Below are positions 18,909-51,121 of a stretch of 64,000 nt of DNA, one piece after another; position 1 is the stretch's first letter, and the number at the start of each line of letters is the position of its first letter. The translations under genes and the position numbers were made by a program. The notes under the pieces are model-generated. The model saw only the letters and a program-made list of their open reading frames with translations. It had not been told where the DNA came from and made no database searches. This DNA is from Arenicola marina (Eukaryota; Annelida; Polychaeta; Arenicolidae). The DNA lies in assembly GCA_964019135.1 (NCBI GenBank), contig OZ025260.1, positions 37,181,373-37,245,372 of the forward strand. Reading direction: 5' to 3'.

Positions 18909-19204
18909 ATGGCGGACAGGAAACGGGAGTCGGTGGGCGAACGGAAGCTCATCATCGGCGTCCCGGTGTTGCCTGGGTTACCGCTCCAGATGGAGACGAC
19001 GATCCGGGACTCTGACGCGGACTCGGTGTCCAGTCTGCCGGCCGAGGACAGCCTGGTCAGTCCCTTCGGCACGATGATGATCCCGGCCGCCCCCAGTCCC
19101 TCTGGCGGCGGCGGCCCGAACCCCCCGACGTGGAAACTGAAACACATGGATTTCGTTCCTGGTCTGGTCAAGAGCAAGAAGGAAGAAGACTACGAACTGT
19201 TCTC
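18909..19204 (+). CDS. Host gene exon 1 (residues 1-99)
   Basis: Starts ATGGCGGACAGG (MADRK). It encodes a low-complexity N-terminus with a GGGGP stretch and acidic/Ser patches, then KKEEDYELFS, which begins module 1. Donor is ttctc|gtgagt, phase 2. Confidence 0.85.
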
Positions 19205-22200
19205 GTGAGTACAAAGGAAAATGTGGATATAAATACTAATAGAAAGAAGAAACGCACCACTTGTTATTGATGTTATATCTTAATAACAGAGGGACGCTGA
19301 CATAAACATATAATAACATACGTACAGACTCAGTCAAAGGAAATAATAATTTCAAATGACAGAATTTCAAAATTGAAAGTTGTTTACACTAGATGTTCAA
19401 ATCTTATAGTGCTTGAATAATCATATATATGCAAAAATAAACGTTGTGCGTTTATTTGTTCCATGAGAACAGTATAGTAATGATGCCTGTGTGGTTATAT
19501 GGATTAGTATTTCGTGCCCCCCCCTCCCCTCCCCTCCCCCTCCCTATCTTGACGCCTCCTCCTAGGTCATGGGTTCGAACCCTGGCACCATGCAATTTGT
19601 CCCAGCAGGTTTCTTGGTTAGCTTCATTTGCACAAAAGTGGTTTAAAACACCCAAGATCCCACTTCATTTGCCCTCCCCTGCCACCCCTGGTCACACCAC
19701 TGTTCCCTCGTGAGTAACGCAGGTCAATTTGTACCAATGTTGTACAAGAATTACGGGAACAAAGACCCATACAGCCATCTCTCGGCCTCTGCTTTTTCAC
19801 AGCTCCTTTTTGCTTCATAGCCTTTAATATATTCAAAATACAGGCTCCCCACGTCTCTCCAACGCAATCTAATTTAACCCCTCCTTGCCCCCCCCCCCCG
19901 CCCCCCTTCCGCCTCACACGGAGGATAAAACACGGAGGGTAAAAGGCAAATATATAATGTACAAAAAAAACCGCTTGATCAAGACTGTCGGCACATGCCC
20001 CTCCTCTCTTCGGTAATAAGTTTTCTATTTTTCTGTTCTTTGTATTTTTATTATCTTGGCGGGAATGTTCAATTCTCCCTAATCGGTGAGACGGTGATAA
20101 CACCCAAGGAGACGCCTCTTATACCGCGTCGAAGGTTGTGTGTCCTTCCTGGTTAGCCATGTCGCCTTTGGTGACTCATGACTTGTGGCCATGTCAGCAT
20201 AGAGAGTGAGGCGATGATATGACTAACAAAATCTCGCCACTCGTTGCGAGCAAAGCAAAATGACGTCACCTTATGACGTCATTCAAGGAGCGCGTTATGA
20301 CCTAAAAATAGTTTTTCTGAAAGTGGTCGTAAGGACGTGAAAACGTCATTTTCGCACCGTCACAACTAGTGATATCCTGGGGTCCGCCTGATGACTTATT
20401 AAGTAAATGTTTGTAGCTTATCATCATGAGTAGGTTTGCTTATCACAGGAACCATGCGGAGACATATGTGTCACTTATCCCCTCACAGACCACAAGGTGG
20501 TGCTCGTTCTGGTCGTTATCAATCGGATCTTTCAGAGTGACTAAGATAAAAAGCAAATAGTTACATTTGTTTACCCTACCGGCTGGCCCTCCCACAAAAT
20601 GCCCTACTGCTATAGGTCGCTATAGGTACTGCTATAAGTATCTCTTGTTGTAGTTGTGTCTACTACTGTAACACTAGCATTCCTTCTTACTGTAGCAGTT
20701 CCTTCTAATGTGGCAGTGTCTCCCACACATTTGCATAGTGTTAGCACATCCCATTAGTCATTTCTACTGTACCAGCTCTATCTACTTAGCACATTCCATT
20801 AGTATCCAACTGTAGCACACCCCGCTACTATAGAAGTCCCTCCTACTGTAGCACACCCCGCCATTATAGAAGTCCCTCCTACTGTAGCACACCCCGCCAC
20901 TATAGAAGTCCCTCCTACTGTAGCAAACCCCGCCCCTATAGAAGTCACTCCTACTGTAGCACACCCCGCCACTATAGAAGTCCCTCCTACTGTAGCACAC
21001 CCCGCCACTATAGAAGTCCCTTCTACTGTAGCACACCCCGCCACTATAGAAGTCCCTCCTACTGTAGCACACCCCGCCACTATATAAGTCCCTCCTACTG
21101 TAGCACACCCCGCCACTATAGAAGTCCCTCCTACTGTAGCACACCCCGCCACTATAGAAGTCCCTCCTACTGTAGCACACCCCGCCACTATAGAAGTTCC
21201 TCCTACTGTAGCACACCCCGCCACTATAGAAGTCCCTCCAACTGTAGCACACCGCGCCACTATAGAAGTCCCTCCTACTGTAGCACACCCCGCCACTATA
21301 GAAGTCCCTCCAACTGTTGCACACCCCGCCACTATAGAAGTCCCTCCTACTGTAGCACACCCCGCCACTATAGAAGTCCCTCCTACTGTAGCACACCCCG
21401 CCACTATAGAAGTCCCTCCTACTGTAGCACACCCCGCCACTATAGAAGTCCCTCCAACTGTAGCACACCCCGCCACTATAGAAGTCCCTCCTACTGTAGC
21501 ACACCCCGCCACTATAGAAGTCCCTCCAACTGTAGCACACCCCGCCACTATAGAAGTCCCTCCAACTGTAGCACACCCCGCCACTATAGAAGTCCCTCCT
21601 ACTGTAGCACACCCCGCCACTATAGAAGTCCCTCCAACTGTAGCACACCCCGCCACTATAGAAGACCCTCCTACTGTAGCACACCCCGCCACTATAGAAG
21701 TCCCTCCTACTGTAGCACACCCCGCCACTATAGAAGTCCCTCCAACTGTAGCACACCCCGCCACTATAGAAGTCCCTCCTACTGTAGCACACCCCGCCTC
21801 TATAGAAGTCCCTCCAACTGTAGCACACCCCGCCACTATAGAAGTCCCTCCTACTGTAGCACACCCCGCCACTATAGAAGTCACTCCTACTGTAGCACAC
21901 CCCGCCACTTTAGAAGTCCCTCATACTGTAGCACACCCCGCCACTATAGAAGTCCCTCCTACTGTAGCACACCCCACCACTATAGAAGTCCCTCCTACTG
22001 TAGCACACCCCGCCATTATAGAAGTCCCTCCAACTGTAGCACACCCCGCCACTATAGAAGTCCCTCCTACTGTAGCACACCCCGCCACTATAGAAGTCCC
22101 TCCTACTGTAGCACACCCCGCCACTATAGAAGTCACTCCTACTGTAGCACACCCCGCTACTATAGAAGTCCCTCCAACTGTAGCACACCCCGCCACTATA

Positions 22201-25200
22201 GAAGTCCTTCCAACTGTAGCACACCCGCCACTATAGAAGTCATTCCAACTGTAGCACACCCCGCCACTATAGAAGTCACTCCTACTGTAGCACACCCCGC
22301 CACTATAGAAGTCCCTCCTACTGTAGCACACCCCGCCACTATAGAAGTCCCTCCTACTGTAGCACACCCCGCCACTATAGAAGTCCCTCCTACTGTAGCA
22401 CACCCCGCCACTTTAGAAGTTCCTCCTACTGTAGCACACCCCGCCACTACAGAAGTCACTCCAACTGTAGCACACCCCGCCACTATAAAAGTCACTCCTA
22501 CTGTAGCACACCCCGCCACTTTAGAAGTCCCTCCTACTGTAGCACACCCCGCCACTATAGAAGTCCCTCCTACTGTAGCACACCCCGCCACTATAGAAGT
22601 CCCTCCTACTGTAGCACACCCCGCCACTATAGAAGTCCCTCCAACTGTAGCACACCCCGCCACTATAGAAGTCCCTCCTACTGTAGCACACCCCGCCTCT
22701 ATAGAAGTCCCTCCAACTGTAGCACACCCCGCCACTATAGAAGTCCCTCCTACTGTAGCACACCCCGCCACTATAGAAGTCACTCCTACTGTAGCACACC
22801 CCGCCACTTTAGAAGTCCCTCATACTGTAGCACACCCCGCCACTATAGAAGTCCCTCCTACTGTAGCACACCCCACCACTATAGAAGTCCCTCCTACTGT
22901 AGCACACCCCGCCATTATAGAAGTCCCTCCAACTGTAGCACACCCCGCCACTATAGAAGTCCCTCCTACTGTAGCACACCCCGCCACTATAGAAGTCCCT
23001 CCTACTGTAGCACACCCCGCCACTATAGAAGTCACTCCTACTGTAGCACACCCCGCTACTATAGAAGTCCCTCCAACTGTAGCACACCCCGCCACTATAG
23101 AAGTCCTTCCAACTGTAGCACACCCGCCACTATAGAAGTCATTCCAACTGTAGCACACCCCGCCACTATAGAAGTCATTCCTACTGTAGCACACCCCGCC
23201 ACTATAGAAGTCCCTCCTACTGTAGCACACCCCGCCACTATAGAAGTCCCTCCTACTGTAGCACACCCCGCCACTATAGAAGTCCCTCCTACTGTAGCAC
23301 ACCCCGCCACTTTAGAAGTTCCTCCTACTGTAGCACACCCCGCCACTACAGAAGTCACTCCAACTGTAGCACACCCCGCCACTATAGAAGTCACTCCTAC
23401 TGTAGCACACCCCGCCACTTTAGAAGTCCCTCCTACTGTAGCACACCCCGCCACTATAGAAGTCCCTCCAACTGTAGCACAGCCCGCCACTATAGAAGTC
23501 CCTCCTTCTGTAGCACACCCCGCCACTATAGAAGTCCCTCCTACTGTAGCACACCCCGCCACTATAGAAGTCCCTCCTACTGTAGCACACCCCGCCACTA
23601 TAGAAGTCCCTCCTACTGTAGCACACCCCGCCACTATAGAAGTCCCTCCTACTGTAGCACACCCCGCCACTATAGAAGTCCCTCCAACTGTAGCACACCC
23701 CGCCACTATAGAAGTCCCTCCTACTGTAGCACACCCCGCCACTATAGAAGTCCCTCCTACTGTAGCACACCCCGCCACTATAGAAGTCCCTCCTACTGTA
23801 GCACACCCCGCCACTTTAGAAGTCCCTCCTACTGTAGCACACCCCGCCACTATAGAAGTCACTCCTACTGTAGCACACCCCGCCACTATAGAAGTCCCTC
23901 CTACTGTAGCACACCCCGCCACTATAGAAGTCCCTCCTACTGTAGCACACCCCGCCACTATAGAAGTCCCTCCTACTGTAGCACACCCCGCCACTATAGA
24001 AGTCCCTCCTACTGTAGCACACCCCGCCACTTTAGAAGTCCCTCCTACTGTAGCACACCCCGCCACTATAGAAGTCCCTCCAACTGTAGCACACCCCGCC
24101 ACTATAGAAGTCCCTCCAACTGTAGCACACCCCGCCACTATAGAAGTCCCTCCTACTGTAGCACACCCCGCTACTATAGAAGTCCCTCCAACTGTAGCAC
24201 ACCCCGCCACTCTGGAAGTTCCTCCTACTGTAGCACACCCCGCCACTATAGAAGTCCCTCCTACTGTAGCACACCCCGCCTCTATAGAAGTTCCTCCAAC
24301 TGTAGCACACCCCGCCACTATAGAAGTCCCTCTTACTGTAGCACACCCCGCCACTATAGAAGTCCCTCCTACTGTAGCACACCCCGCCTCTATAGAAGTC
24401 CCTCCAACTGTAGCACACCCCGCCACTATAGAAGGCCCTTCCTACTGTAGCACACCCCGCCACTATAGAAGTCCCTCCTACTGTAGCACACCCCGCCACT
24501 ATAGAAGTCCCTCCAACTGTAGCACACCCCGCCACTATAGAAGTCCCTCCTACTGTAGCACACCCCGCCACTATATAAGTCCCTCCTTCTGTAGCACACC
24601 CCGCCACTATAGAAGTCCCTCCTACTGTAGCACACCCCGCCACTATAGAAGTCCCTCCTACTGTAGCACACCCCGCCACTATAGAAGTCCCTCCTACTGT
24701 AGCACACCCCGCCACTATTTTTTTTTTTTTTTTTTTTTTTTTTTATTTTAAAATAAAAGTGCGGTACATAGGTACATCAAGTCCAATTGACTTATTCACA
24801 ACAACAATAAAATATGATGAAGAAAGAAAAGACATTGTTTACGTCAATGCAATATTTAGTTTCTCAAGCCAGTTACATATATTTTTAATTTTTGTTACCC
24901 TGGTTACCCTGTATATGTTAATTTTTTGTGTTAATTCAGCCAGAAATAATTTATTAATATCGGAGTGAACACATCTAGTTTCTCTTTGGTTAAGTATCAG
25001 TTAGATTTTGTATATTATATAGCTGCATACAGTTATTCCAAAGTTATCTATATAGCTGTTGCAACCAGTTACGATGTCGGCTGGTGTAACAGTTCTACAC
25101 ATTACGAATGAAACAGCTTTCCAAATGTTATTGATATAATCACACCAGAATAACATGTGAGGTATGGTATGAGAATCGCGACAGTAAGGACAATAGTCAT

Positions 25201-28200
25201 TTTCTCTTAGTTTCATTTTCTTCAGATTGTAGTTACAAGTTAAAATATTGTGCAAAATCTTATAGTTAAATTCTGACAATTTAGAGTCTGTGATGTCAAT
25301 CACTTTTCGACTAAAAGCTGCCAATGTATCTTCCTCAGCAGGTAGCAGACACCAATTGCCTAACGCCTTCAGAGGTTTTTTAACCTCGTACTTACAGCTT
25401 ACTAACGCTTTATATATGTCTTTAGATTTGATATTATTGTTTGAACATGTAATAGAGCCTGTAGTTACACAAGGTAAAATAGTCATGACATCGCGTAGTA
25501 TTAACATTGTATCTCTATATGGATATAGAGCTTTCTTTAGTAACTTGATTTGACGCAGTACATCTCTCTGGTCATTTATCATATGGTACAGGTAGGTTTC
25601 ATCGACACTTCCATTTGTGAATTTCAAATGGTGTACTTTAGTGATACCAACCTTAATAAACGAATTAAAGAGTAGGCATGTTTTTACACTCCTGTTACCT
25701 AACATTACGCTTACGTTTTGGTTTCCCCATAAAGACTCAGTAAGTAAACTCTCGATATCTTGTGGCTTCGGTCGAACATTTGCTTTCGCGTACGCACTTA
25801 TGATATTTGAATAGAAGGTGGGCAACTTGGATAACTCAGGCAATGCACTTTTTTCACTGAAGCACATGTCAACGATTGGTGTTTGAAACTGCTCGCAATA
25901 TTCTTTACCTAGGACAGCCCAATTTGCATTATTTTCATCTGCAAGTAGTCGTATCAGCCACTTGGCTTTCAGGGAGTCAATATACGAGTCTAAGTCTATC
26001 ATTGCCACTCCGCCATACGCTTTTGGTGACATCAATACATTACGTTTAATACGTTCCGTTCTATTCCAGATAAAATTATACAGTAGCTTGTTAAGTTTCT
26101 TAACTATGTCGGGTGGTACTATAACGCAGGTTGCAATAAACGATATCTTTGGGATAATTAAGGCTTTTATTACAGTTAGCTTGCCAAAGAGTGTTAACTT
26201 CCTTTTTTTCCAGGTACTTAAGACTTTCTCTATGGATAGTAGTTTGTTAGTCCAGTTTAGATTATTACACTCTTCACTATCATTTCCGATATACACGCCG
26301 AGACACTTCACAGGCTCTTCCAATATTGCTATACCGTGGGGGGTTACCTCTTTTTTATTCCCGCTGGGACCGACATTCATACACATGGTTTTTGCTAGGT
26401 TTAGTTTTAGTCCTGCCACTTTTTCAAATTCATTTAATTCATCGAGCACCCCTGTAATTTGTTCGGCGTTTTGTAGGAGTAGTGTCAAGTCGTCAGCATA
26501 TTGGGATACCTTTAGCTCGTGCTCTTGCTGTCTGATTCGAACCTTGAAACCCTTTATACCCTTATTGTTTTTTACATTAATGGCCAGCAATTCAATAGCT
26601 ATGACGAACAGCATCGCCGAGAGTGGACAGCCCTGCTTTATACCGCGAGACAAGTTAACAGGATTTGAAAAGTGACCGTTGTTTTTTACCCGTGCAGATG
26701 AATCTTTATATAACAGTCGGACCCATTGAATGAATGATTTTCCAAACTCAAATTTGTTTAGCGACTGGTGTAGAAAATCCCATTCTAAACTGTCAAAAGC
26801 TTTCTCGAAGTCCAAAAATAGAAGAATACCACTGACATGTTTACGATTTGCATAATCTATAACGTCTTGAATCATACGGACATTGCAACCTATAAACCGT
26901 TTTGGTATATAACCAGTTTGATCTGGGCTTATGATACTAGATATGACTGATTTAAGACGCCGGGCCAGCGCTTGTGCCAGGATCTTATAATCAACATTAG
27001 ATAGCGTGATTGGTCTGTAGTTTTTAAGTAATCCACGAGAGTTGCCTTTATGAATGAGCGTTAAAAGCGACGTGCGTTGTGAAACCGACAACACTTCCTC
27101 TTCATAGCATTCCTTGTATGATTCAACTAACAAATCTTTTATGTATGGCCATAATGCTTGATAAAACTCCACGGTGAGCCCGTCGTTTCCCGGAGACTTG
27201 TTTAGTTTCATTGCCATAAGTGCATTTGAACATTCCTGCACTGACACATATCCTTCACAGAGATCGCGATCTTCCTTTGACAATACATTTGTAACCTTTA
27301 CGGCGTCAATATAACTGTTTACATGGTTAATGTCAGGAGACCTGCTTTTGTAGAGGCTATCATAGTATTGATGTAATTCTTTCAGGATACAATCTTTGTT
27401 TGTGATACGGGTTCCGTCCGGTGATTCTAACATGTCTATACTATTATAAGATTGACGAGACTTTTCTAAATTAAGAAAATAAGACGTATTTTTTCCCCTT
27501 GCTCTATCCATTCTGCCCTAGCACGTATCTGAGCTCTTTTTGCGGTATCACACATCAACATATCGTATTCTGCTTTTAGTGTGGTTCTTTTGACTATCAA
27601 GTCAGTAGAGCTATGAAGGACTAGGTCTCTCTCGATAACCTTCAACTCTTCCTCGACCTTTTCCACAGCATTTTTACGTACTCTACTTTGGATTATACCA
27701 TAATGTATGGAAAACTCCTTAAATTTAATTTTGCACAAGTCCCATAGATCTCTTTTACAGCAATAATCCTGATACTCTTCTATCGTTTCATTTAAAATAT
27801 CAATAATCCCAGTTGTATAAGATTCATTTGTTAATAGAGAATTGTTGAGTTTCCAGTATCCTCTCCAACGGGTGCTAGACGAGATGCGGATCTTGAAAAG
27901 CATCGACTTATGGTCTGGTGTGGGCGCGTGAACAATATCTGCCGCCCTAGCTTTTTTCATTAGATCTGCGGATACAAGTATATAATCAATTCGACTGGAA
28001 TTACCTCTAGAAGAAGGGTCTATATACGTGTATTCCCTTTTAAAAGGATTCAAACAACGGTAAGTATCCCCCAGATTTAGCACTTTCTTAAAGACAGTAA
28101 ATTCAGATGAGCTATGGTCAAGATGACCAGATTTTCTGTCAATACTGGCATCCACGGTGTTAAAATCCCCCCCAACCACTGTTTGAGAGGCATTGCATGA

Positions 28201-31200
28201 GTTCTGGAGAATCCAATTACGTACATGCTTGAAGAAGTCAACTCTAGCTTTGCCGTCATTTGGTGCATACACATTTACCAAACAATATTCTGTTCCCTTT
28301 ATCACACAGTTTACTAACAGTGATCTACCTTCATTACCAATATGTGCACTAATCAACTCAAAATCTAGCTTAGTGCTGACTAGAATGGCTGTGCCTCTAC
28401 TGTGAGAAGAATCCCTTACTGAATGAAATGCCTTTCCTTCCCACTCTCTATTAAATTTACCAACGAAACTATCCGTGACGAATGTTTCCTGCAGAAACGC
28501 GATATCAACACCCTTATTTTTAAGGAACATGAAGACCTTTTCACGTTTTACTCTTTTCCGTAAACCTCTTACATTAAGACTAGTACAAGTCACGATATCA
28601 CATTTTAGATTTTCACCCATTGATTTATCTTTTGTCATGAAATATCAAATTCATCCTAGGTTTCACATTGTTTTTGTCCATTAATCCAGTGTTCATAGAG
28701 GTAGGTCCGCAGGGATGGAGGGGTGTCGTTACCGTTTTAGACCATGTAAGACCACGGGCGCTGTGAACTCAGCCGTCGTCGTTGCTCCCTCTGGCGAGTT
28801 TACATTCAGATTCGGCTGGCGGGGTACCGGCTAAGGTCTTCCGCCACTATAGAAGTCCCTCCTACTGTAGCACACCCCGCCACTATAGAAGTCCCTCCTA
28901 CTGTAGCACACCTCGCCACTATAGAAGTCCCTCCTACTGTAGCACACCCCGCCACTATAGAAGTCCCTCCTACTGTAGCACACCCCGCCACCATAGAAGT
29001 CCCTCCTACTGTAGCACACCCCGCCACTATAGAAGTCCCTCCTACTGTAGCACACCCCGTCACTATAGAAGTCCCTCCTACTGTAGCAACGTCCCCTGTT
29101 GCAGGATACCGCACTGTGGCAGTCACACTATATACCGTGGCTAGTGTTTCCACTATCGTAGCCACCGTCATTTCCACAGCCCGTATTTTCATTCATTTCC
29201 ATTCATTTCCATAGCTCCACCCATTTTCGCCGTTTCTCCCATTTCTAAAGTCCTCGCATGTCTTGCCATTACCACAACTGTTGCAGCCCTTCAACTCTGA
29301 ACTGCTCATAGATATACTCTCTACATCTACTGCTAGGAGTTAGCCTACTGCATACTGTATGCTAGAAACTATACAGAAAAAATGTACAGAACATCTGACC
29401 TGAAAACGACTTGAACACATATATTTTCAACGAAAGAGCGTTTTGGGCGAGAAAGAATACAAAGCAAGTCATCAGTAGATTCAAACACCGCTACTACACG
29501 GGCGCCCCATTCACACCCGGTCTCCCAATACACTGACCCGTGGATTTGTTCTCCAGGTCGTTGATGGACAAGGCTAACGAGTGGTCCGTGGCTAACCCCC
29601 AGGCCCTCATCTTCACCTGTGAGACTGTGCAGTGGATGTCGGCAGACCGCCCGATCTACACGGACAGCGGGGTCATCCACAAGAGCATGCACTCCGACAA
29701 GAAGACACGGGTGATGCGAGGACTCAGGTAACCATGTCGACACCGTTAAGTCACTTAGTCTTCATGTGCAAACATGTGGCCCAAAACACCAATACTTGTC
29801 CTCCATCAAGTCGTGGTCGTCCCACATCTGTGCGACACAAACATCTGTATGAGGACAACATCTGTGCGCCGAGCACATCTGTGCGACGACCACATCTGTG
29901 CGACCACATCTGCATGACGACTACATCCATGACCGTCCTTGTTTCACTCAGGCTGTGGTACATGCTCCATCGCTGCCCTTGTTTCACTCGGACTGTGGTA
30001 CATGCTCCATGACCGCCCTTGTTTCACTCAGACTGTGATACATTCTCCATGACTGCCCTTGTTTCACTCAGGATGTGGTACATGCTCCATGACCGCCCTT
30101 GTTTCACTCAGACTGTGGTACATGCTCCATGACCGCCCTTGTTTCACTCAGACTGTGGTACATGCTCCATGACCGCCCTTGTTTCACTCAGACTGTGGTA
30201 CATGCTCCATGACCGCCCTTGTTTCACTCAGGTTGTGGTACATGCTCCATCACTGCCCTTGTTTCACTCAGACTGTGGTACATGCTCCATGACCGCCCTT
30301 GTTTCACTCAGGTTGTGGTACATGCTCCATCACTGCCCTTGTTTCACTCAGACTGTAGTACATGCTCCATGACCGCCCTTGTTTCACTCAGACTGTGATA
30401 CATTCTCCATGACTGCCCTTGTTTCACTCAGGTTGTGGTACATGCTCCATGACCGCCCTTGTTTCACTCAGGTTGTGGTACATGCTCCATGACCGCCCTT
30501 GTTTCACTCAGACTGTGGTACATGCCCCATGACCGCCCTTGTTTTACTCAGACTGTGGTACATGCTCCATGACCGCCCTTGTTTCACTCAGACTGTGGTA
30601 CATGCTCCATGACCGCCCTTGTTTCACTCAGGCTGTGGTACATGTTCCATGAAAACCCTTGTTTCACTCAGGTTGTGGTACATGCTCCATGACCGCCCTT
30701 GTTTCACTCAGACTGTGGTCCATGCTCCATGACCGCCCTTGTTTCACTCAGACTGTGGTACATGCTCCATGAAAGCCCTTGTTTCACTCAGGTTGTGGTA
30801 CATGCTCCATGACTGCCCTTGTTTCACTCAGACTGTGGTACATGCTCCATGACCGCCCTTGTTTCACTCAGACTGTGGTACATGCTCCATGACCGCCCTT
30901 GTTTCACTCAGACTGTGGTACATGCTCCATGACTGCCTTTGTTTCACTCAGACTGTGGTACATGATCCATGACCGCCCTTGTTTCACTCAGACTGTGGTA
31001 CATGCCCCATGACCGCCCTTGTTTTACTCAGACTGTGGTACATGCTCCATGACCGCCCTTGTTTCACTCAGACTGTGGTACATGCTCCATGACTGCCCTT
31101 GTTTCACTCAGGCTGTGGTACACGCCCCATGACCGCCCTTGTTTCACTCAGACTGTGGTACATGCTCCATGACCGCCCTTGTTTCACTCAGGCTGTGGTA

Positions 31201-34200
31201 CATGCTCCATGACCGCCCTTGTTTCACTCAGGCTGTGGTACATGCTCCATGACCGCCCTTGTTTCACTCAGACTGTGGTACATGCTCCATGACCGCCCTT
31301 GTTTCACTCAGACTGTGGTACATGCTCCATGACCGCCCTTGTTTCACTCAGACTGTGGTACATGCTCCATGACCGCCCTTGTTTCACTCAGACTGTGGTA
31401 CAAGCTCCATGACTGCCCTTGTTTCACTCAGGCTGTGGTACATGCCCCATGACCGCCCTTGTTTCACTCAGACTGTGGTACATGCTCCATGACCGCCCTT
31501 GTTTCACTCAGGCTGTGGTACATGCTCCATGACCGCCCTTGTTTCACTCAGGCTGTGGTACATGCTCCATGACCGCCCTTGTTTCACTCAGACTGTGGTA
31601 CATGCTCCATGACCGCCCTTGTTTCACTCAGACTGTGGTACATGCTCCATGACTGCCCTTGTTTCACTCAGGCTGTGGTACATGCTCCATGACCGCCCTT
31701 GTTTCACTCAGACTGTGGTACATGCTCTATGACCGCCCTTGTTTCACTCAGACTGTGGTACATGCTCCATGACCGCCCTTGTTTCACTCAGACTGTGGTA
31801 CATGCTCCAAGACCGCCCTTGTTTCACTCAGACTGTGGTACATGCCCCATGACCGCCCTTGTTTCACTCAGACTGTGATACATTCTCCATGACCGCCCTT
31901 GTTTCACTCAGGTTGTGGTACATGCTCCATGACCGCCCTTGTTTCACTCAGACTGTGGTACATGCTCCATGACCGCCCTTGTTTCACTCAGGCTGTGGTA
32001 CATGCTCCATCACTGCCCTTGTTTCACTCAGACTGTGGTACATGCTCCATGACCGCCCTTGTTTCACTCAGACTGTGGTACATGCTCCATGACCGCCCTT
32101 GTTTCACTCAGACTGTGGTACATGCTCCATGACCGCCCATGTTTCACTCAGGCTGTGGTACATGCTCCATGACCGCCCTTGTTTCACTCAGGCTGTGGTA
32201 CATGCTCCATGACCGCCCTTATTTCACTCGGACTGTGGTACATGCTCCATGACCGCCCTTGTTTCACTCAGACTGTGGTACATGCTCCATGACCGCCCTT
32301 GTTTCACTCAGACTGTGGTACATGCTCCATGACCGCCCTTGTTTCACTCAGGCTGTGGTACATGCTCCATGACCGCCCTTGTTTCACTCAGGCTGTGGTA
32401 CATGTTCCATGAAAACCCTTGTTTCACTCAGGTTGTGGTACATGCTCCATGACCGCCCTTGTTTCACTCAGACTGTGGTACATGCTCCATGACCGCCCTT
32501 GTTTCACTCAGACTGTGGTACATGCTCCATGAAAGCCCTTGTTTCACTCAGGTTGTGGTACATGCTCCATGACCGCCCTTGTTTCACTCAGGCTGTGGTA
32601 CATGCTCCATGACCGCCCTTGTTTCACTCAGACTGTGGTACACGCTCCATGAAAGCCCTTGTTTCACTCAGGTTGTGGTACATGCTCCATGACCGCCCTT
32701 GTTTCACTCAGACTGTGGTACATGCTCCATGACCGCCCTTGTTTCACTCAGACTGTGGTACATGCTCCATGAAAGCCCTTGTTTCACTCAGGTTGTGGTA
32801 CATGCTCCATGACCGCCCTTGTTTCACTCAGGCTGTGGTACATGCTCCATGACCGCCCTTGTTTCACTCAGGCCGTGGTACATGCTCCATGACCGCCCTT
32901 GTTTCACTCAGACTGTGGTACATGCTTCATGGCCGCCCTTGTTTCACTCAGACTGTGGTACATGCTCCATGACTGCCCTTGTTTCACTCAGGCTGTGGTA
33001 CACGCCCCATGACCGCCCTTGTTTCACTCAGACTGTGGTACATGCTCCATGACCGCCCTTGTTTCACTCAGGCTGTGGTACATGCTCCATGACCGCCCTT
33101 GTTTCACTCAGGCTGTGGTACATGCTCCATGACCGCCCTTGTTTCACTCAGACTGTGGTACATGCTCCATGACCGCCCTTGTTTCACTCAGACTGTGGTA
33201 CATGCTCCATGACCGCCCTTGTTTCACTCAGACTGTGGTACATGCTCCATGACCGCCCTTGTTTCCCTCAGACTGTGGTACATGCTCCATGGCTGACCTT
33301 GTTTCACTCAGGTTGTGGTACATGCTTCTCGACGATACGTTCTTCGATGCCAGTGACCGGAGCAAGTGTCCCGGCCCCGTCAAACTGACCTACACCAACT
33401 ACATTCCAGAGGCCAAGACTGACAACTTCCACAACATGTTAAAGCGACTGAACGAAGATCTCCTCAAGAAGGCAATACCGGGTGAGTCTCGCAGGTTGTT
33501 AGGATACCAACGTTATTGAATCTTCAAGATATATCCAACGCACGCCAGTGAGTTATTTGCGGGGATATTTACCGGGTCAGCCGTCACGAGTCGGGGGTTT
33601 GCTCCCCATTGTTGCATGGCGTATATGATTAAACCCCGATGTCATCCTTATTAAAGACAAGAGGGTACCACACAATGACGTCACTTGGTGCTGCCCTCGG
33701 CCATTCCCATTAGCTCTATATTGTCTTTAATTTTCCTTTTGAGATGAGACATTAAATAACAACATAAAATCAGGCGAAGCGTCCTGGATACACTGTCTGA
33801 CTGTGTGATTGTTAACTTGCAAAAGGCGGCAGTGATGTCCGAATTTTGATGACGTAGTACACAAGAAAGTCACCCGCGACGCCCCCGTTTTGCCACAAAG
33901 CGGCTTAGCAACAGACCCTTTTATTTATTGCATATAATATATGCGGTCGTATACCCCAATAACTACATTATTTCTATTGAATCAATTCTCAAGGAAACTG
34001 TATATATGATTACCGCTTATAAGCACTCAGCAACTCAGTCCCTTGACTAAATGATGCCACAAAAATAATTATACAGATAGAATATTTTGTCATCTAAACA
34101 TGTGTTTGGTTGAACTGTAGGTCGGAAGATCCTACGCGTGGAGACGCTGCACCAGCTTAGTGACTGCGCGGACCCAGACACCAACTCCTGGCGGGAGCAG

Positions 34201-37200
34201 CCGGATAACAGCCGGGACTACTTCAGCTTCATCCGCGTCTTCTCCATGCTGAGGGCGGAGGACACGCCGAAAACAAGCGAGCTGGGTACGAATTGGTTAC
34301 AGGTGGTTGATTATTCAGGACGCTTTAACCACTTTTGGTCATATCGCGTCAATGGGAGATGGAAGGGAGAGTGGAGCCATGTCCCGGGGGTAATCCCCTA
34401 CTCTTTACGGAGAAAAACATGGGGTTTTCAACCTGCGACCACACAGACATGGCCACAGCAGGGCTCGAACCGCCGATCCACGTGCCGTTAGGCTCTCAGG
34501 CGACCAGAGCACTACATGCGAGCACTCTAACCCACTGAGCTACCGCGTCGGCCCCGAATTGGTTACAGGCATGCAAGAATACATGTATGTGGCTGGGTAC
34601 GAATTGGTTACTGAGATGCAGGAATACAGGCGGCTCCATTTATGATCCAAACGATAGCCAGTGACATTGCATGATTGGTACGAATTGGTTACTATGATAC
34701 ACTAATACAGGCTGCTACATTTATGGTCCCGGCGTAAGGATTGTTGTCGGCTGGCCATACACCTTGATCATACTCAAGCCTCGTCTCCCCCTTTGGCAGG
34801 TGTCCGGGACTTCTTCCCGGCCTACGACCAGCGCACACCGCACAGTCAGGGATACGAGACCTTCAGCGACCTCTGGCGGAAGGCGGCCCGCTGGCAGTTC
34901 ATGAACCCACGTCTACACATCATCAGCTTCCAGTCGGTCTTCGTCAAGATCAAGAAAGGCGGTGAGGCGGCATTAACCATCTTAGTCCATATCTACATAT
35001 CCGTTAAACCGCCGCATGAGCACGCCAGGGCGTCTGGCAGTTTAGGTCTGGCAGTTTATAGATAGATAGATAGATAGATATAATATATAGACTGATTTCT
35101 ATCATACAAGTATCATAACGCACCCCACAATCTGGTTTCGGTTTTTGCTTCTATATGTCATAACGTAATACTGAAATATTTTAACCCTGGCGTCGGCATC
35201 TGGAGCGAATTTCATTCTTCCAACCAACCACACGTCATAGTCCAGAGAGGTTCTTTGGCGCAATTTAGCCTAAATGTTAACACAAACGTGCCCTTTATAA
35301 AACACCATTCATTTTATTTCATTTCATTTCACTTTACTTCATTTCCTTTCATTTCATTTCATTTCACTTCAGACTCGGACCAAATCACGTTCTTTGACCG
35401 CTGTTACTTCCGCGAGCACAACTCTTCCTACGGGTCGATGGGCCACAACCGCACTGAGTACATCCAGCTGCTGCGTTGTGTGTTCACCCAGGCCCAGCCC
35501 CCCGCCAAGCCGGACGCCCCGCTGGCCCAGCGCCGCCTCTTCTACAAGCACTTCGGTCCCTTCAAGCTGCGGCGCGGCGCCGAGAGCGCCTCGGGGGACG
35601 ACATGGAGCCGCTGGAGTACCTCTACGAAGACCTGCAGCACGTCGAGGCCAAGATCAACAGCTGGCTCGTCTACTCCGGTAAGGCGGGAGAGGTCTATGG
35701 CAAGCCGTTTGTATCATATCGTCTACTCCGGTAAGGCGGGAGAGGTCTATGGCAAGCCGTTTGTATCATATCGTCTACTCCGGTAAGGCGGGAGAGGTCT
35801 ATGGCAAGCCGTTTGTATCATATCGTCTACTCCGGTAAGGCGGGAGAGGTCTATGTCATGCCGTTTGTATCATATCGTCTACTCCGGTAAGGCGGGAGAG
35901 GTCTATAGCAAGCCGTTTGTATCATATCGTCTACCCCGGTAAGGCGGGAGAGGTCTATGGCAAGCCGTTTGTATGATATCGTATTCTCTAGTAAACGGTC
36001 AATCTATGCCTAATGAAAGCTATGAAAGGCATTTGGCCCGCCATTATATGGTACTATTGAGTTATGGCTCGAACCCATGTTGGTTAGCAACTGCCTCTGC
36101 AACCTCCCGATATAACTGGGGGTGTATAAACTGTATGCCGGCTGAGAAAATGTAATGTTGGCATCAGCAAATACACCTTTGGCTTTTATGATATTAAGAA
36201 ATAGTTTTTTATCTTACGCTTTCTCAGCAAATTTAATATCAAGGTCGCTCAGACCAATTTGCGATATATATAGACTTAATTGTGGATTTTACGCCATGAC
36301 CTATACATATTGCTTTTAATAATAATATAATATGACAATATAATAAGCGTAATATGCGCCGCTTGCAAACTATTCAACGCCTTCTGTCCCTTCAGGAGCC
36401 CGGATCCTGGGCATGGAGACGATCCCGACACGGCTGACGACGGGCGGTCAGGAGACGGTGGGTCCGGAGGCAACGTACTGCTACAACGACCGGGAGAAAA
36501 ACGTACATCGGGAGTACTGGCGGGTGCATCTCAGGTAGGAACACTGGCGGGTCCATCTCAGGCAGGAACACTGGCGGGTCCATCTCAGGTAGGAACACTG
36601 GCGGGTCCATCTCAGGTAGGAACACTGGCGGGTCCATCTCAGGTAGGAACACTGGCGGGTCCATCTCAGGTAGGAACACTGGCGGGTCCATCTCAGGTAG
36701 GAGCACTGGCGGGTCCATCTCATGTAGGAACACTGGCGGGTCCATCTCAGGTAGGAACACTGGCGGGTCCATCTCATGTAGGAACACTGGCGGGTTCATC
36801 TCAGGTAGGAACACTGGCGGGTCCATCTCAGGTAGGAGCACTGGCGGGTTCATCTCAGGTAGGAACACTGGCGGGTCCATCTCAGGTAAGAACACTGGCG
36901 GGTCCATCTCAGGTAGGAACACTGGCGGGTCCATCTCATGTAGGAACACTGGCGGGTTCATCTCAGGTAGGAACACTGGCGGGTCCATCTCAGGTAGGAA
37001 CACTGGCGGGTTCATCTCAGGTAGGAACACTGGCGGGTCCATCTCATGTAGGAACATTGGCGGGTTCATCTCAGGTAGGAACACTGGCGGGTTCATCTCA
37101 GGTAGGAACACTGGCGGGTCCATCTCAGGTAAGAACACTGGCGGGTCCATCTCAGGTAGGAACACTGGCGGGTCCATCTCATGTAGGAACACTGGCGGGT

Positions 37201-38057
37201 TCATCTCAGGTAGGAACACTGGCGGGTCCATCTCAGGTAGGAACACTGGCGGGTCCATCTCATGTAGGAACATTGGCGGGTCCATCTCAGGTAGGAACAC
37301 TGGCGGGTCCATCTCAGGTAGGAACACTGGCGGGTCCATCTCAGGTAGGAACACTGGCGGGTCCATCTCAGGTAGGAACACTGGCGGGTCCATCTCAGGT
37401 AGGAACACTGGCGGGTCCATCTCAGGTAGGAACACTGGCGGGTCCATCTCAGGTAGGAACACTGGCGGGTCCATCTGAGGTAGGAACACTGGCGGGTCCA
37501 TCTCAGGTAGGAACACTGGCGGGTCCATCTCAGGTAGGAACACTGGCGGGTCCATCTCGGGTAGGAACACTGGCGGGTCCATCTCAGGTAGGAACACTGG
37601 CGGGTCCATCTCAGGTAGGAACACTGGCGGGTCCATCTCAGGTAGGAACACTGGCGGGTCCATCTCAGGTAGGAACACTGGCGGGTCCATCTCAGGTAGG
37701 AACACTGGCGGGTCCATCTCAGGTAGGAACACTGGCGGGTCCATCTCAGGTAGGAACACTGGCGGGTCCATCTCGGGTAGGAACACTGGCGGGTCCATCT
37801 CAGTTAGGAACACTGGCGGGTCCATCTCGGGTAGGAACACTGGCGGGTCCATCTCAGGTAGGAACACTGAGATCTAACCCGAGACTGTCCAGTCAATCCC
37901 TGGTTGGATCTCAGGTAAGAACTTTCTGCCCAATAGGTATGCATCTGCACCACATTTAGTTATGAATAATTATGTTGTAACTTTACCCGTCTTTCGCAGG
38001 GTTTATATCGAGGGAAACTTCAAGGAAATAGCAGCCTTGCCAGCCAAGTTGGTGTGA
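18909..38057 (+). CDS. Unrecognised host gene, 8 exons, 488 aa, four-module repeat protein
   Basis: Joined exons: 18909-19204, 29557-29727, 33312-33481, 34121-34285, 34800-34961, 35373-35678, 36396-36534, 38000-38057. Lengths sum to 1467 nt, that is 488 codons plus TGA. All seven introns are GT-AG and phases match (2,2,1,1,1,1,2). I do not recognise the family. Residues 1-94 are Ser/Pro/Gly-rich and probably disordered. Residues about 95-488 hold four modules: a helix, a strand with an ET-like motif (CETVQW, RVETLHQL, ISFQSVF, GMETIPT), a variable loop and an Arg/aromatic strand (TRVMRGLRLWYML, YFSFIRVFSML, EYIQLLRCVF, EYWRVHLRVYIEG). No signal peptide or membrane segment is evident, so it is probably intracellular. 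Exons are rich in G/C at third positions, unlike the AT-rich introns. The start at 18909 is the first ATG after the possible splice site and has a good context. Structure is confident; function is unknown. Confidence 0.88.
19205..20805. other. Intron 1, left part
   Basis: Besides the SINE-like piece it holds a C-run at 19889-19910 and paired tgacgtca-like sites near 20262-20280. From about 20590 to 20805 there are decayed copies of the 36-bp repeat (for example ttcttactgtagcagttcc) that grade into the array proper. No exon recognised. Confidence 0.6.
19485..19700 (+). mobile_element. Possible tRNA-derived SINE in intron 1
   Basis: A strong box B-like gggttcgaaccctggca at about 19569 is preceded at a distance by a degenerate box A-like ggttatatggattagta near 19494. 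The intervening C-rich stretch looks expanded. A related tail follows. Boundaries are approximate. Confidence 0.4.
20806..24718. repeat. 36-bp minisatellite array in intron 1, about 109 copies
   Basis: Units combine ccactatagaagtccctcct with actgtagcacaccccg. Variants (caactgtagc, cattatag, ctttagaag, cctctatag) form patterns: the block 21910-22520 recurs at 22809-23420 with the same rare one-base deletion (cacacccgcc) and the same marker order, offset 899 bp. The array was continuous with 28841-29092 before the LINE inserted. Long open frames on the minus strand are artefacts of the 36-nt period. Confidence 0.97.
24839..27511 (-). pseudogene. LINE ORF2: reverse transcriptase and C-terminus
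   Basis: Open from 27511 to a TAA at 25001-25003 (836 codons). The same frame then stays open for about 53 more codons to a TAA at 24839, so the stop at 25001 is probably premature. Reverse transcriptase motifs seen: NYRPITLSN, FLDFEKAFDSLEWDFL (first catalytic Asp), KQGCPLSAMLFVIAIELLA and QYADDLTLLL (catalytic YADD). The Cys-His motif YCPYCRDSHTIPHMLFWC lies near the end. The style of the FDSLEWDFL and GCPLSAMLF motifs suggests the L1 group, Tx1 branch. It lies inside intron 1 of the host gene on the opposite strand. Confidence 0.9.
27466..28638 (-). pseudogene. LINE ORF2: APE-type endonuclease
   Basis: 390 codons. Endonuclease motifs in order: TSLNVRGLR, FLQETF (catalytic Glu), NVYAPN, VVGGDFNTV (catalytic Asp-Asn), SRIDYILVS and TPDHKSMLF (catalytic Asp-His). 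It ends reading AEWIEQGEK and then leaves frame. The polymerase frame takes over with GKNTSYFLNLEK, overlapping at 27466-27511. The site is the run ggggaaaaaat on the minus strand, where seven As instead of six would restore one frame, so a single-base loss (or sequencing error) in an A-run splits the ORF. Confidence 0.9.
28841..29092. repeat. 36-bp minisatellite, remainder right of the LINE, 7 copies
   Basis: Same unit as 20806-24718. It ends at tgtagcaacgtcccc and is followed by decayed, more diverged versions up to about 29175. Confidence 0.95.
29093..29556. other. Intron 1, right end
   Basis: Decayed 36-bp repeat copies, then unique sequence leading to the 3' splice site ttgttctccag at 29556. 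Otherwise nothing recognised. Confidence 0.6.
29557..29727 (+). CDS. Host gene exon 2 (residues 99-156)
   Basis: Acceptor ttgttctccag|g restores codon Ser99 and continues SLMDKANEW. It covers most of module 1, including IFTCETVQW and TRVMRGLR. Donor gactcag|gtaacc, phase 2, at the position equivalent to intron 7. Confidence 0.92.
29925..33326. repeat. 40-bp array in intron 2: about 85 copies of the exon 3 splice acceptor
   Basis: Every 40-bp unit contains cttgtttcactcag followed by gctgtggtacatgct (or gact/gttg variants), which is the intron 2 3' splice site plus the first 15 bases of exon 3. The last unit is the real junction at 33311/33312. The array fills about 95 percent of the 3584-bp intron. 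I read decoy acceptors in several units: joining exon 2 to the nearest gives LWYMLHG and a stop, and joining to typical units farther up stops after about 20 codons. Confidence 0.96.
33312..33481 (+). CDS. Host gene exon 3 (residues 156-213)
   Basis: Acceptor tttcactcag|g. Encodes LWYMLLDDTFF, then the end of module 1 (TYTNYIPEA) and the helix of module 2 (FHNMLKRLNEDLLKKAIPG). Donor ataccgg|gtgagt, phase 1. Its first 15 bases are part of the 40-bp repeat unit. Confidence 0.9.
33482..34120. other. Intron 3
   Basis: 639 bp of unique AT-rich sequence. It has no copies of its splice junctions, unlike introns 2, 4, 6 and 7. Confidence 0.7.
34121..34285 (+). CDS. Host gene exon 4 (residues 213-268)
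   Basis: Acceptor ttgaactgtag|gt. Encodes RKILRVETLHQL and DYFSFIRVFSML of module 2. Donor gagctgg|gtacga, phase 1. Confidence 0.92.
34284..34720. repeat. Intron 4: dispersed copies of its own 5' splice junction
   Basis: The junction sequence ctgg|gtacgaattggttac at 34282-34300 recurs at about 34594 (gctgggtacgaattggttac) and 34676 (attggtacgaattggttac). A shorter cgaattggttacagg at 34555 is explained by the SINE's target duplication. Text after each copy is also related (aatacaggcggct, aatacaggctgct), so units of roughly 80-100 bp were duplicated. Confidence 0.85.
34304..34554 (-). mobile_element. tRNA-derived SINE with perfect 15-bp target duplication
   Basis: On the minus strand it starts with a tRNA-like head: box A-like tagctcagtgggttagag and box B-like ggttcgagccc. 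A body follows that matches 61853-62008 and 10422-10472. It is flanked by cgaattggttacagg at 34289-34303 and 34555-34569, exact on both sides. It landed in the first copy of the intron 4 junction repeat, 3 bp inside the intron. Confidence 0.9.
34800..34961 (+). CDS. Host gene exon 5 (residues 268-322)
   Basis: Acceptor ctttggcag|gt. Encodes VRDFFPAY (end of module 2) and YETFSDLWRKAARWQFMNPR (start of module 3), which closely parallels YELFSSLMDKANEW at the start of module 1. Donor aaaggcg|gtgagg, phase 1. Confidence 0.93.
35055..35083. repeat. GATA microsatellite in intron 5
   Basis: A short run of tagatagatagatagata, six or so units. Confidence 0.9.
35296..35372 (+). repeat. TTTCA pentanucleotide repeat forming the intron 5 pyrimidine tract
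   Basis: About 15 units of atttc with variants run straight into the 3' splice site tttcacttcag at 35372. The acceptor hexamer is one change from a repeat unit, so the tract and splice site share one repeat. Confidence 0.85.
35373..35678 (+). CDS. Host gene exon 6 (residues 322-424)
   Basis: Acceptor tttcacttcag|ac. Encodes DSDQITFFDRCYFREH, TEYIQLLRCVF, a Pro/Ala linker and FYKHFGPFKL of module 3, then the helix of module 4 (EYLYEDLQHVEAKINSW). Very GC-rich. Donor ctactccg|gtaagg, phase 1, at the position equivalent to intron 3. Confidence 0.93.
35665..35990. repeat. 52-bp array in intron 6: six copies of its own 5' splice junction
   Basis: Donor ctactccg|gtaaggcggg at 35679 recurs at 35731, 35783, 35835, 35887 and 35939, exactly 52 bp apart. 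The unit includes the last about 13 bases of exon 6. Reading on in frame past the true donor meets TAA at the second donor (cgg taa). The unit is not a multiple of three, so the second donor would shift frame. Confidence 0.96.
36396..36534 (+). CDS. Host gene exon 7 (residues 424-470)
   Basis: Acceptor gtcccttcag|ga. Encodes ARILGMETIPTRL and EYWRVHLR of module 4. Donor catctcag|gtagga, phase 2, equivalent to intron 2. The last 19 bases belong to the 27-bp repeat unit. Confidence 0.9.
36516..37868. repeat. 27-bp array in intron 7: about 50 copies of its own 5' splice junction
   Basis: Units carry actggcgggtccatctcag followed by gtaggaac, that is the end of exon 7 plus the intron start. Some units read ctcaggtaagaac, a stronger donor. 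The 27-nt period leaves long open frames in both directions (artefacts). Extending exon 7 to any decoy donor reads CAT CTC AGG TAG, so a stop follows Arg470 at once. A further donor-like tctcag|gtaaga stands at about 37912. Confidence 0.97.
38000..38057 (+). CDS. Host gene exon 8 (residues 470-488, stop)
   Basis: Acceptor ctttcgcag|g. Encodes VYIEGNFKEIAALPAKLV then TGA. This completes the Arg/aromatic strand of module 4. Confidence 0.88.
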
Positions 38058-46626: not shown

Positions 46627-47345
46627 TTAGAGCCCAGTACAGGGACACAATGGGATCCAGAGATTACACAGTCCGCTGGGCCACGCTCCACGAGTCCTGC
46701 ACCCAGGCCCAGTACATGGACACAATGGGATCCAAAGATTACACAGTCCGCGGGGCCACGCTCCACGAGTCCTGCACCCAGGCCCAGTACATGGACACAA
46801 TGGGATCCCGAGGTTACACAGTCCGCTGGGCCACGCTCCTCGAGTCCTGCACCCAGGCCCAGTACAAGGACACAATGGGATCCAGAAATTACACAGTCCG
46901 CTGGGCCACGCTCCGCGAGTCCTGCACCCAGGCCCAGTACAGGGACACAATGGGATCCAGAGATTACACAGTCCGCGGGGCCACGCCGCTCCACGAGTCC
47001 TGCATCCAGGCCCAGTACAGGGACACAATGGGATCCAGAGATTACACAGTCCGCGGGGCCACGCCGCTCCACGAGTCCTGCATCCAGGCCCAGTACAGGG
47101 ACACAATGGGATCCAGAGATTACACAGTCCGCGGAGCCACGCTCCGCGAGTCCTGCACCCAGGCTCAGTGCATGGACACAATGGGATCCAGAGATTACAC
47201 AGTCCGCGGGGCCACGCCGCTCCACGAGTCCTGCACCCAGGCCCAGTACAGGGACACAATGGGATCCAGAGATTACACAGTCCGCTGGGCCACGCTCTGC
47301 GAGTCCTGTACCCAGGCCCAGGGACACAATAAGATCCAGATTTAG
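46627..47345. repeat. 75/78-bp tandem repeat, 9-10 copies
   Basis: Units starting acaatgggatcc at about 46647, 46722, 46797, 46872, 46947, 47025, 47103, 47178 and 47256. Spacing is 75 bp, or 78 bp where gcc is inserted in the ccacgccgctcc part. All unit lengths are multiples of three, so a 231-codon frame (+ strand) and a 237-codon frame (- strand) stay open. No splice sites or homology support translation. Confidence 0.93.
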
Positions 47346-48538: not shown

Positions 48539-49108
48539 CTAGGTGTTAAAACGCCTTGTCTTTTCAATATACACATGTACAGCTTTAAATATTTCTAACA
48601 TTTCTTGCAAAGTTAAGTTGGCATTCCCGAACAAAATGGTTCCGAGTGTAAAACTTGTAATTTTCATTACATTTTGCAATAATCTGTCGCGTATGATAGT
48701 ATACATCGGACATTCTAAAAAATAGTGTGTGGTATCTTCACGAGGTGCGCCACATTTACATTGTTGATCATTAATTATACACATATCAAAAAGATGAGCC
48801 CTTAACTTACTACAATTCATTCTCAGTCGCGAGTGTACAACGTTCGTGCAGCGCCGGCCAAAGTTAAATAACTTGGTAGTCTCCCTCTTATGACAAATAT
48901 CCTTATTAACTAAGGCCTGTTTGAAAGTTTTATGGTCGCACATGGATCTTATATTGATAGGTAGTTCGTTCCAGAGCCCTATCACACTTGGTAGAAACGA
49001 GTTGTAATAAGAAGAAAGTCGCGTCTTAAAGGTCGTGACGTTTAATGGCAGAGCATTACGAAGCGCGTAGTGTGTTCTTTGTGTTACATTTTGAGGGAAA
49101 TATCGCAT
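48539..49108 (-). pseudogene. LINE ORF C-terminal part with Cys-His motif
   Basis: 189 codons: TFKTRLSSYYNSFLPSVIGL and WNELP, typical of the region after the polymerase in CR1/L2-type elements, then CKCGAPREDTTHYFLEC. It continues the polymerase in another frame; the switch is near 49100 (one frame reads YLCDISLKM then stop, the other RYFPQNVTQRT). Confidence 0.85.
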
Positions 49109-50830
49109 AAATAACTTGGGGCGTTCCCATAAAACATCTTGTGAAACAGTAACAATTGAAATCTTTTACGTCGAGCACTAAATGTTTCCCAACCGAGTTC
49201 TTGATAGATAAGCGAGTGACCAATGTGTTTAATCGCCCCGGATACAAGACGGCCTGCTCTGAGCTGAACGGCTTCTAGCCTGTCAGCGTCCGCCTGTGTG
49301 CAACCATCCCAAAGAATACATGCATATTCCATAGTGGGATGCACGAAGGTTTTGTACATTAAATCCAGCGTAGCTCGGTTTAACTTGTAACGCAGTCTGG
49401 ACAACACATCGACCCTTCTACTCGCCTTAAGACACATGTCACTGATATGAGATGACCATGTGAGTTTAGAGTTCAAGGTTACGCCAAGATGTTTATGCTG
49501 GTTAGTATTTTGTAAAACTTCGCCTCCCATTTGCAATGGCGGTAAATCAGTTATGGGTTTATTGGATATGGTCATAGATTTTGTCTTAGGTGCGCTAAAC
49601 GTTACAAACCACTGCGAGGCCCAGGACTCCATTTTTTGCAAATCACAGTTTAACATATCAGTTCCATCATCCAATTGATCATCATCGTCTACAATGACAT
49701 ATACAGTTGTGTCGTCAGCGAAAAGTCTAATTTTTGACTGTATCCCGTCGACGATATCGTTGATATAAACTAAGAATAAAAGAGGACCCAGGACTGATCC
49801 CTGTGGAACCCCCGCTTGGATATGACCCAGAGGAGACGCTGCGCCATCAATCACCACACTCTGATACCTGTCATCGAGGTAGTTTTTAAACCAGTTCAGA
49901 AGTCTGCCAGTAATTCCAATACGCTCAAGTTTGTGGATAAGACCAACGTGCCACACACGATCAAATGCCTTTGATATATCGCAGAACACAACACGGACAA
50001 TCTTGCGTTTGTCTAAAGCCTCACTAAATATATGATATAGATGGACAAGCTGGTTAACCGTGCTGTCGCCTGGTATAAACCCAGACTGAAGTCTAGAGAG
50101 TATTTCATTGTCACGCAGATAGTTAAACGTATGTTTAAATATAATCCTTTCGAACAGCTTCCCGGTACAGCTTAATAGCGAGACTAGCCTATAGTTGTCG
50201 ACTAGGCTTCTATTACCTTTTTTGAATATGGGGATAACGCTTGCTTGCTTCCACAGACGAGGCATCTTGCAATCCTTCAGGCATTCATTAAACAATATCA
50301 TGAGCGGCTCGCTTATACAAGAGCCGGCTTCGCGTAACATTCGAGGGCTAATCCCATCAGGACCACAGGCTTTCTTTATATCTATGCATTTTAGCAGATC
50401 GACTATTTCGTCCTGTGTAACAGAGATGTTATTTAAACCCGTGAGCATACAACCACCATCTGTGTCTAGGCTGACACGCTCACTTACATCGAGAGTTGAA
50501 TGGGATAAAAAGTAGTTATTAAACATAGATGCTTTAGTGTGAGGATTGGACTCAGCTCGACCATCAGCCTGTAAGACTGGGTACCCGCAACTATCATTTA
50601 TGCCAAGCATTTGTTTGGAGATGCGCCACCATTTCTTTGGCGTCACAGAGCTTGATTCGTTCAATACACATTCTAAATCATACAAGTATGTAGCTTTTGC
50701 CTCCCTTAAGTTTGTGATATATTCGTTACGCCGTCTTCTGTACTCTGCCCAGTCCGTGTCTCTACTGGACTTCCGTGCTTTACCATGAAGCCTGTCAAGA
50801 GCCCTCTTTTTACATCTAAGTTCCTTATTA
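49084..50830 (-). pseudogene. LINE reverse transcriptase part
   Basis: Open from about 50830 to the stop at 49084 (533 codons from the first start-like codon at 50685). Motifs: KKACGPDGISPRML, NYRLVSLLSCTGKLFERI, VVFCDISKAFDRVWH (first catalytic Asp), AGVPQGSVLGPLLFLVYIND, LFADDTTVYV (catalytic FADD), and HKHLGVTLNSKLTWSSHI of the thumb. The upstream linker (RRRRNEYITNLREAKATYLY) is in the same frame. Confidence 0.9.
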
Positions 50831-51121
50831 AAAATGGTTTATCCTTCGGACGAATAGTAACTACCTTGTTTGGAATGAAATCTGTACACAAGCTGAGAAA
50901 CTGCGACGTCCACGCCTCACACATAGTATCTGGGTCCCCGGACAGAAAGCATTCGCTCCAGTCCGTATGTGACAGAGCTTCAAGGAACTGATCAAAGTCG
51001 GCTTTGTCATAATGCCAAACCTTGCGTTTGTAGCATTTGGTCGTATGCGATTAAAAACTGAGTTCACAAACAATCACAGAGTGGTCACTAGTGGTGACTG
51101 GTGTGAGAATGTCAACATTCT

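Follow-up and report, generated by a model that had tools for sequence, protein, structure and literature searches.

Minisatellites with a repeat unit that straddles an exon-intron border, be it at the start or the end of the intron, and that duplicates the AG or GT found there, are known from amphioxus as 'mirage' minisatellites: the accessible text of two papers (PMC3087553, PMC3902484) places them in globin (BflGb6, BflGb9), Adh3, troponin C and PGBD5 genes, and reports that the globin and Adh mirages do not disturb the mRNA. Here we analyze a stretch of 64,000 nucleotides (the window) from the polychaete annelid Arenicola marina (assembly GCA_964019135.1, contig OZ025260.1, forward-strand positions 37,181,373 to 37,245,372), in which a gene of eight coding exons contains, in intron 2, an array of 85 units that copy the acceptor and the start of exon 3. 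An original prediction, made by a model from the letters alone, had pointed to this array and named the amphioxus mirages as the nearest known system, a comparison that these papers uphold. The arrays of the host gene share with them the position of the unit and the duplicated signal: the acceptor unit joins the end of the intron to the first 14-15 nt of exon 3, in a frame confirmed by homologues, and the extra units carry the splice signal (AG in 82 of 84 decoys here, GT in 47 of 49 decoys at the exon-7 donor).

The differences are of scale and setting. Whereas the amphioxus globin and PGBD5 mirages are described as 2-7 units of 60-160 bp, and Adh3 units as 10-72 bp long, the present arrays have 85, 50 and ~72 units of 27-40 bp, plus a probable ~30; three arrays of this kind lie in one gene, the setting is an annelid, and there is a version that amplifies a stop codon. 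Tandem alternative splice sites (NAGNAG, GYNNGY) also place several usable sites near one another, but these are alternatives and lie, in the available part of PMC2878309, 2-12 nt apart, whereas the sites described here read as decoys at a spacing of 40, 52 and 27 nt. Annelid introns filled with minisatellites, as in our host gene, are on record for intron 1 of earthworm metallothionein (PMC12783039), where the accessible text describes no repeats that span a splice junction; judging by titles and abstract openings, we recognized no report of annelid repeats across splice junctions in the open-licence literature. The arrays are a real, extreme and apparently recurrent form of mirage minisatellite in a phylum for which we found no earlier report, and mirages appear to extend beyond cephalochordates.

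The acceptor array of intron 2 and its host gene

The array and its last unit are located as follows:

29926 to 33326, + strand: minisatellite of 40 bp x 85, an acceptor mirage with pyrimidine tract, AG and the first 14-15 coding bases of exon 3 in each unit (Tandem Repeats Finder, TRF; register alignment)
33286 to 33325, + strand: last unit, with the inferred real acceptor (AG at 33310-33311), the sole unit with CTGAC (unit comparison)

TRF reports 85.0 copies with 94% matches and 0% indels, and when the array is read in register its 85 units resolve into 31 distinct sequences, the most frequent of which is seen 30 times. Positions 1-26 of the unit consensus, TCCATGACCGCCCTTGTTTCACTCAG, are the pyrimidine tract and AG and close in ...CCCTTGTTTCACTCAG; positions 27-40 are the first 14 coding bases of exon 3, and since the 15th base matches too, the overlap of array and exon is 14-15 nt. 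The AG is kept in 83 of 85 units and replaced by GG in units 2 and 58. The proposal that the unit consists of the acceptor and the start of exon 3 is therefore borne out by TRF, the register alignment and the frame of the exon. The array occupies 94.5% of the 3,584-nt intron; all 65 matches to an exact 29-nt unit pattern in the 867-Mb assembly fall within it, and the unit had 0 hits in viral contigs. A chance origin is excluded because the copy number is so high. A block of seven units occurs twice (units 30-36 and 77-83): an initial block test fell short of significance (59 of 500 shuffles), but in an entropy-weighted test none of 1000 shuffles of the unit order did as well, and the repeated block, as read from the units, shows past turnover of the array. 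A long-range period of ~44 units was not significant either (141 of 500 shuffles as low).

The exons of the host gene join into one open frame, 488 codons long, its splice signals are canonical, and its shortest intron is 411 nt. Its coding exons are:

18909 to 19204, + strand: exon 1, with ATG at 18909 (open frame, splice signals, tblastn with P0001)
29557 to 29727, + strand: exon 2, donor CAG/GTAACC (the slash marks the exon-intron border), joins the acceptor array (open frame, splice signals, tblastn)
33312 to 33481, + strand: exon 3, 170 nt (open frame, splice signals, homologue alignment, tblastn)
34121 to 34285, + strand: exon 4 (open frame, splice signals, tblastn)
34800 to 34961, + strand: exon 5 (open frame, splice signals, tblastn)
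35373 to 35678, + strand: exon 6, 306 nt, donor CCG/GTAAGG (open frame, splice signals, tblastn)
36396 to 36534, + strand: exon 7, 139 nt, donor CAG/GTAGGA (open frame, splice signals, tblastn)
38000 to 38057, + strand: exon 8, including the stop codon (open frame, splice signals; below the length for a tblastn match)

The complete frame exists only when the exon-touching copies serve as splice sites. The predicted end of exon 2 at 29727 and start of exon 3 at 33312 agree with both the open frame and the splice signals. A search of 5.8 billion proteins returned eight relatives of the host protein, and a profile search, with scoring restricted to the 7,995 candidates with most words in common, returned the identical set. 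Three of them carry organism names: one from Paralvinella palmiformis (56% identity, 98% of the query covered) and two from Capitella teleta (46% and 32% identity). Seven of the eight homologues span the exon 2/3 junction gap-free (RG[LI]R-x-WY), the eighth being a fragment, and the Paralvinella homologue is identical across it at RGLRLWYM. Because the homologues run gap-free through this junction, the acceptor at 33311/33312, in the last unit, is on this comparison the one that makes the protein; that the last copy alone keeps the protein, as originally proposed, also fits the 488-codon frame. From the intact frame and the conserved junction we infer correct splicing to the exon-touching copy. 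Exon 3 was located by tblastn with four of the six homologues tried; two of these four alignments extend into the array at ~40% identity, which we take as overextension. The host protein had no match in Pfam, a profile of the homologues had none in a sequence search of the PDB, and an AlphaFold model of a Capitella homologue (mean pLDDT 68) had no structural match at E 0.001 in the PDB and viral libraries.

The three named homologues are all annelid, and the assembly contains the annelid erythrocruorin linker family (Eryth_link_C of Pfam), so an amphioxus setting is not supported. Eryth_link_C has four matches on contig C14 (best E 1.6e-20) and none in 14 control genomes, of which those named are all prokaryotes and so uninformative about other animals; the family is not known from outside the annelids.

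The 84 upstream units closely resemble the real acceptor: 77 are identical to it at positions −14 to −1, and 11 at positions −14 to +14. All 84, including the two without AG, would lead to a premature stop inside the lengthened exon 3 (73 at 20 codons, four at 2, one at 8, two at 42, one at 52 and three at 60). The predicted stop within about 21 codons thus applies to 78 units, and fails in the remaining six (42, 42, 52, 60, 60 and 60 codons), where the stop still lies in the lengthened exon. Because exons 4-8 lie downstream of the decoy stops, leaving five exon junctions, nonsense-mediated decay of decoy-spliced transcripts would be expected.

A difference in the last unit, which the original prediction had advised looking for, does exist: CTGAC is confined to unit 85, where the usual ATGAC is lost, while a looser CTNAY also matches unit 58. 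This CTGAC is 15 nt from the AG by hand count, which is close for a branch point; it may be a replaced branch point, or merely the divergence typical of edge copies. Among the exon-side variants, the commonest are synonymous (Arg as AGA or AGG and Leu as CTG or TTG; Val in exon 7), and rarer acceptor-side variants are non-synonymous, as is CAT/GT, found in six of the 49 exon-7 decoys; the variants are too few for a claim of synonymous drift.

Arrays at other coding borders

The acceptor array is real, with its 85 units, and it is one of several such arrays in the same gene and genome, which the original prediction missed and which involve donors and a stop codon as well. In the host gene these and related features are:

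36516 to 37869, + strand: minisatellite of 27 bp x 50 across the exon-7 donor, a donor mirage whose inferred real donor is the first copy (TRF, decoy translation, donor comparison)
35667 to 35982, + strand: minisatellite of 52 bp x 6 across the exon-6 donor, a donor mirage whose inferred real donor is the first copy (TRF, decoy translation)
34286 to 34729, + strand: stretch of intron 4 in which the exon-4 donor region (GGTACGAATTGGTTAC) recurs in diverged form at ~34596 and ~34677 (sequence comparison)
35308 to 35371, + strand: TTCAT pentamer array that forms the polypyrimidine tract of the exon-6 acceptor and ends just before the exon (TRF)

At exon 7 the protein is kept by the first copy; 35 of the 49 decoys match the real donor at all nine positions compared, and all 49 decoy positions are followed by an in-frame stop one codon on. 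In the two nearest decoys 23 and 50 nt separate this stop from the last junction downstream, a distance that may be too short for decay. At exon 6 there are five full decoys, all identical to the real donor at nine of nine positions. Further copies of the exon-4 donor region, at 34289 and 34555, are probably target-site duplications of a short interspersed nuclear element, a weak case made by eye.

Tandem repeats are abundant in this genome. Counting periods of 10 or more, they cover 33.9% of a sample of ten 10-kb stretches, drawn from ten contigs at a single fixed position (20,000 of the 33,944 repeat bases come from two all-array stretches), and 73% of the ten 10-kb stretches flanking the window; the window itself is 41% tandem repeat. 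We also inspected 15 kinase loci, chosen from 122 kinase matches; they are mostly partial domain matches, and hence not a random sample, and their kinase types were named from motifs beyond the Pfam hit. A PKN-like kinase has a clear donor mirage, in which a 27-bp unit is present in 71.9 copies, beginning 14 nt inside the exon. The exon ends in ...LKYLHDHKIVYR/, its donor is the first copy, and the next exon continues R/DLKLDN; each of the 53 pattern-matched decoy donors leads to an immediate stop. At locus L031 an array with 30.5 copies of a 31-bp unit starts 51 nt past the donor (position 1309), and over 21 nt the donor region can be aligned to a unit with a score of 26 (reached in 0 of 500 shuffles; the best of 53 other exonic 40-mers scored 18); this is a probable donor mirage, the likeness being in part the donor consensus itself. 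At L034 (positions 1738-2663) the closing 111 nt of the kinase coding sequence, including the stop codon, recur in an array of 107-bp units that extends to the 3' side; the coding copy is again the first. In L029 another array adjoins the next donor, and in L036 an array ends 56 nt from the kinase hit. At the remaining loci TRF reported no array bordering the kinase hit, not all outer junctions having been mapped.

It is conceivable, though we would not count on it, that boundary-straddling minisatellites occur genome-wide, with thousands of acceptors, donors and even stop codons amplified to tens of decoys. If this were so, the choice of the exon-proximal site would have to be strict and general, and the genome would be a very large natural competition experiment among near-identical splice sites.

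Exon definition and rival explanations

We consider that the acceptor array is probably a giant mirage, in which a duplication of the border was followed by growth and exon definition chooses the copy that touches the exon. A tandem duplication straddling the intron 2/exon 3 border would have seeded the minisatellite, which unit and block duplication would then have enlarged. Growth would have proceeded from the exon border into the intron, because the protein is not altered by copies on the intron side but would be by copies in the exon. The homologues conserve the exon side of the units, which also suggests copying in this direction. The spliceosome would pair first the sites nearest to each other across an exon, so that the last acceptor wins at exon 3 and the first donors win at exons 6 and 7, and occasional use of a decoy would be cleared by nonsense-mediated decay. 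Two filters would suffice, tolerance of intron-side copies and pairing of the nearest sites across the exon, and the array itself is probably without benefit. All four clear splice arrays extend outward from the coding border, and in each the protein is kept by the exon-touching copy, the last for the acceptor and the first for the three donors. That the stop-codon border of L034 is amplified likewise argues for a general filter at coding borders. As far as the accessible text of Carranza et al. (PMC9225289, 2022) goes, long flanking introns combined with near-equal strength favor the 5' sites closest across the exon, and when identical 5' sites competed in five minigenes whose flanking introns measured 365 nt, the upstream site was used exclusively.

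Several observations pull the other way. The branch-point-like CTGAC is found only in the last unit, and site strength could contribute, though the motif is just 15 nt from the AG; two exon-7 decoys (CAG/GTAAGA) are nearer the consensus than the real donor, with eight versus seven of nine positions; and among the exon-6 decoys all but the first lead to a stop within the coding sequence. In the same text of PMC9225289, when 5' sites were not equalized in strength, all four classes favored the downstream one, and with competing 3' sites exon definition only lowered the preference for the upstream site, with no reversal in the long/long class. Given this weaker effect on 3' sites, the 84-to-1 contest among acceptors is harder to explain than the donor cases, and a better test.

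Instead of being only tolerated at splice junctions, arrays could be made there, if junctions were mutational hot spots for the birth of minisatellites (through R-loops, paused transcription or repair, for example). Three of the six larger arrays of the host gene straddle a junction, while random placement gave at least three in 0.7% of 20,000 trials and, conditional on the acceptor array, at least two of the other five in 2.3%; the test left out short TRF rows, the poly-T and the TTCAT array, and counted as two the array of intron 1 that is split by a long interspersed nuclear element (LINE). The enrichment is suggestive, not strong, and the 15 kinase loci add one clear and one probable donor array. 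The numbers are small, however, they start from one ascertained gene in an array-rich genome (33.9% of the 100 kb sampled, 41% of the window), and the amplified stop codon of L034 is a coding border without splicing. We regard a hot spot as unlikely.

It is also quite improbable that the decoys are functional, as a splicing rheostat in which the number of repeats diverts a length-dependent share of the transcripts into nonsense-mediated decay. The retention of AG in 82 of 84 decoys, that of the tract, and the stops to which all decoys lead would fit such a role, as would the smaller number of distinct variants in the unit core (six of 42 possible at positions 13-26, versus 23 of 78). This reduction, however, is not significant (Fisher P 0.076), and stops are expected in most read-through of introns; a phase-2 intron with a GTAA, GTGA or GTAG donor yields one automatically.

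That the last acceptor wins by intrinsic strength, with CTGAC as its branch point, rather than by its nearness to the donor of exon 3, has in its favor that this motif replaces the usual ATGAC in unit 85 and nowhere else; but given the short distance to the AG, and the identity of five of five exon-6 and 35 of 49 exon-7 decoys to the real donor, which would require a different rule there, we find it very improbable. An artefactual array length is hardly credible, for although the draft version of one amphioxus mirage was mis-assembled, according to the accessible part of PMC3087553, the 85 units comprise 31 distinct sequences without indels, the contig is 42.2 Mb long, and similar arrays occur at other loci.

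The locus is a natural test case for splice-site choice in general. Because its competing sites are nearly identical, sequence strength largely drops out as an explanation and the effect of position alone is put to a direct test, with up to 84:1 against the right answer; the donor arrays of the host gene test the mirror case. The locus also offers a setting for testing intron gain by repeat amplification and the effects of repeat number on splicing fidelity and decay.

Other repeats and protein matches

The LINE in intron 1 lies on the minus strand at 24718-28840, with a poly-T at its left end and, by eye, endonuclease-like and reverse-transcriptase-like frames; it splits the 36-bp array of that intron into 20805-24718 and 28841-29088. 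Scans of the window with Rfam and for tRNAs gave no hits. A 25-bp array at the left edge of the window (1-899) appears to continue upstream, where five adjoining 10-kb stretches (L009-L013) consist almost wholly of a 25-bp array; directly to the right of the window (L014) there is a 27-bp array of ~10 kb with 74% GC. Two arrays within the window, at 46632-47321 (75 bp) and 59437-59725 (36 bp), stay open in several frames; the single frame of the former that was tried had no Pfam match. A second minus-strand LINE has matches to RVT_1 (49087-50838) and, below threshold, to Exo_endo_phos (51125-52102).

Elsewhere in the assembly, contig C3 carries a large local expansion of kinase domains: dozens of frames that resemble one another, ~250-380 codons long and almost always free of internal stops, most of them at 45-57 Mb. 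Kinase matches with internal TAG and/or TAA occur on seven small contigs (C232, C330, C443, C465, C497, C504 and C652), as if derived from a ciliate-like contaminant that reads these codons as amino acids.

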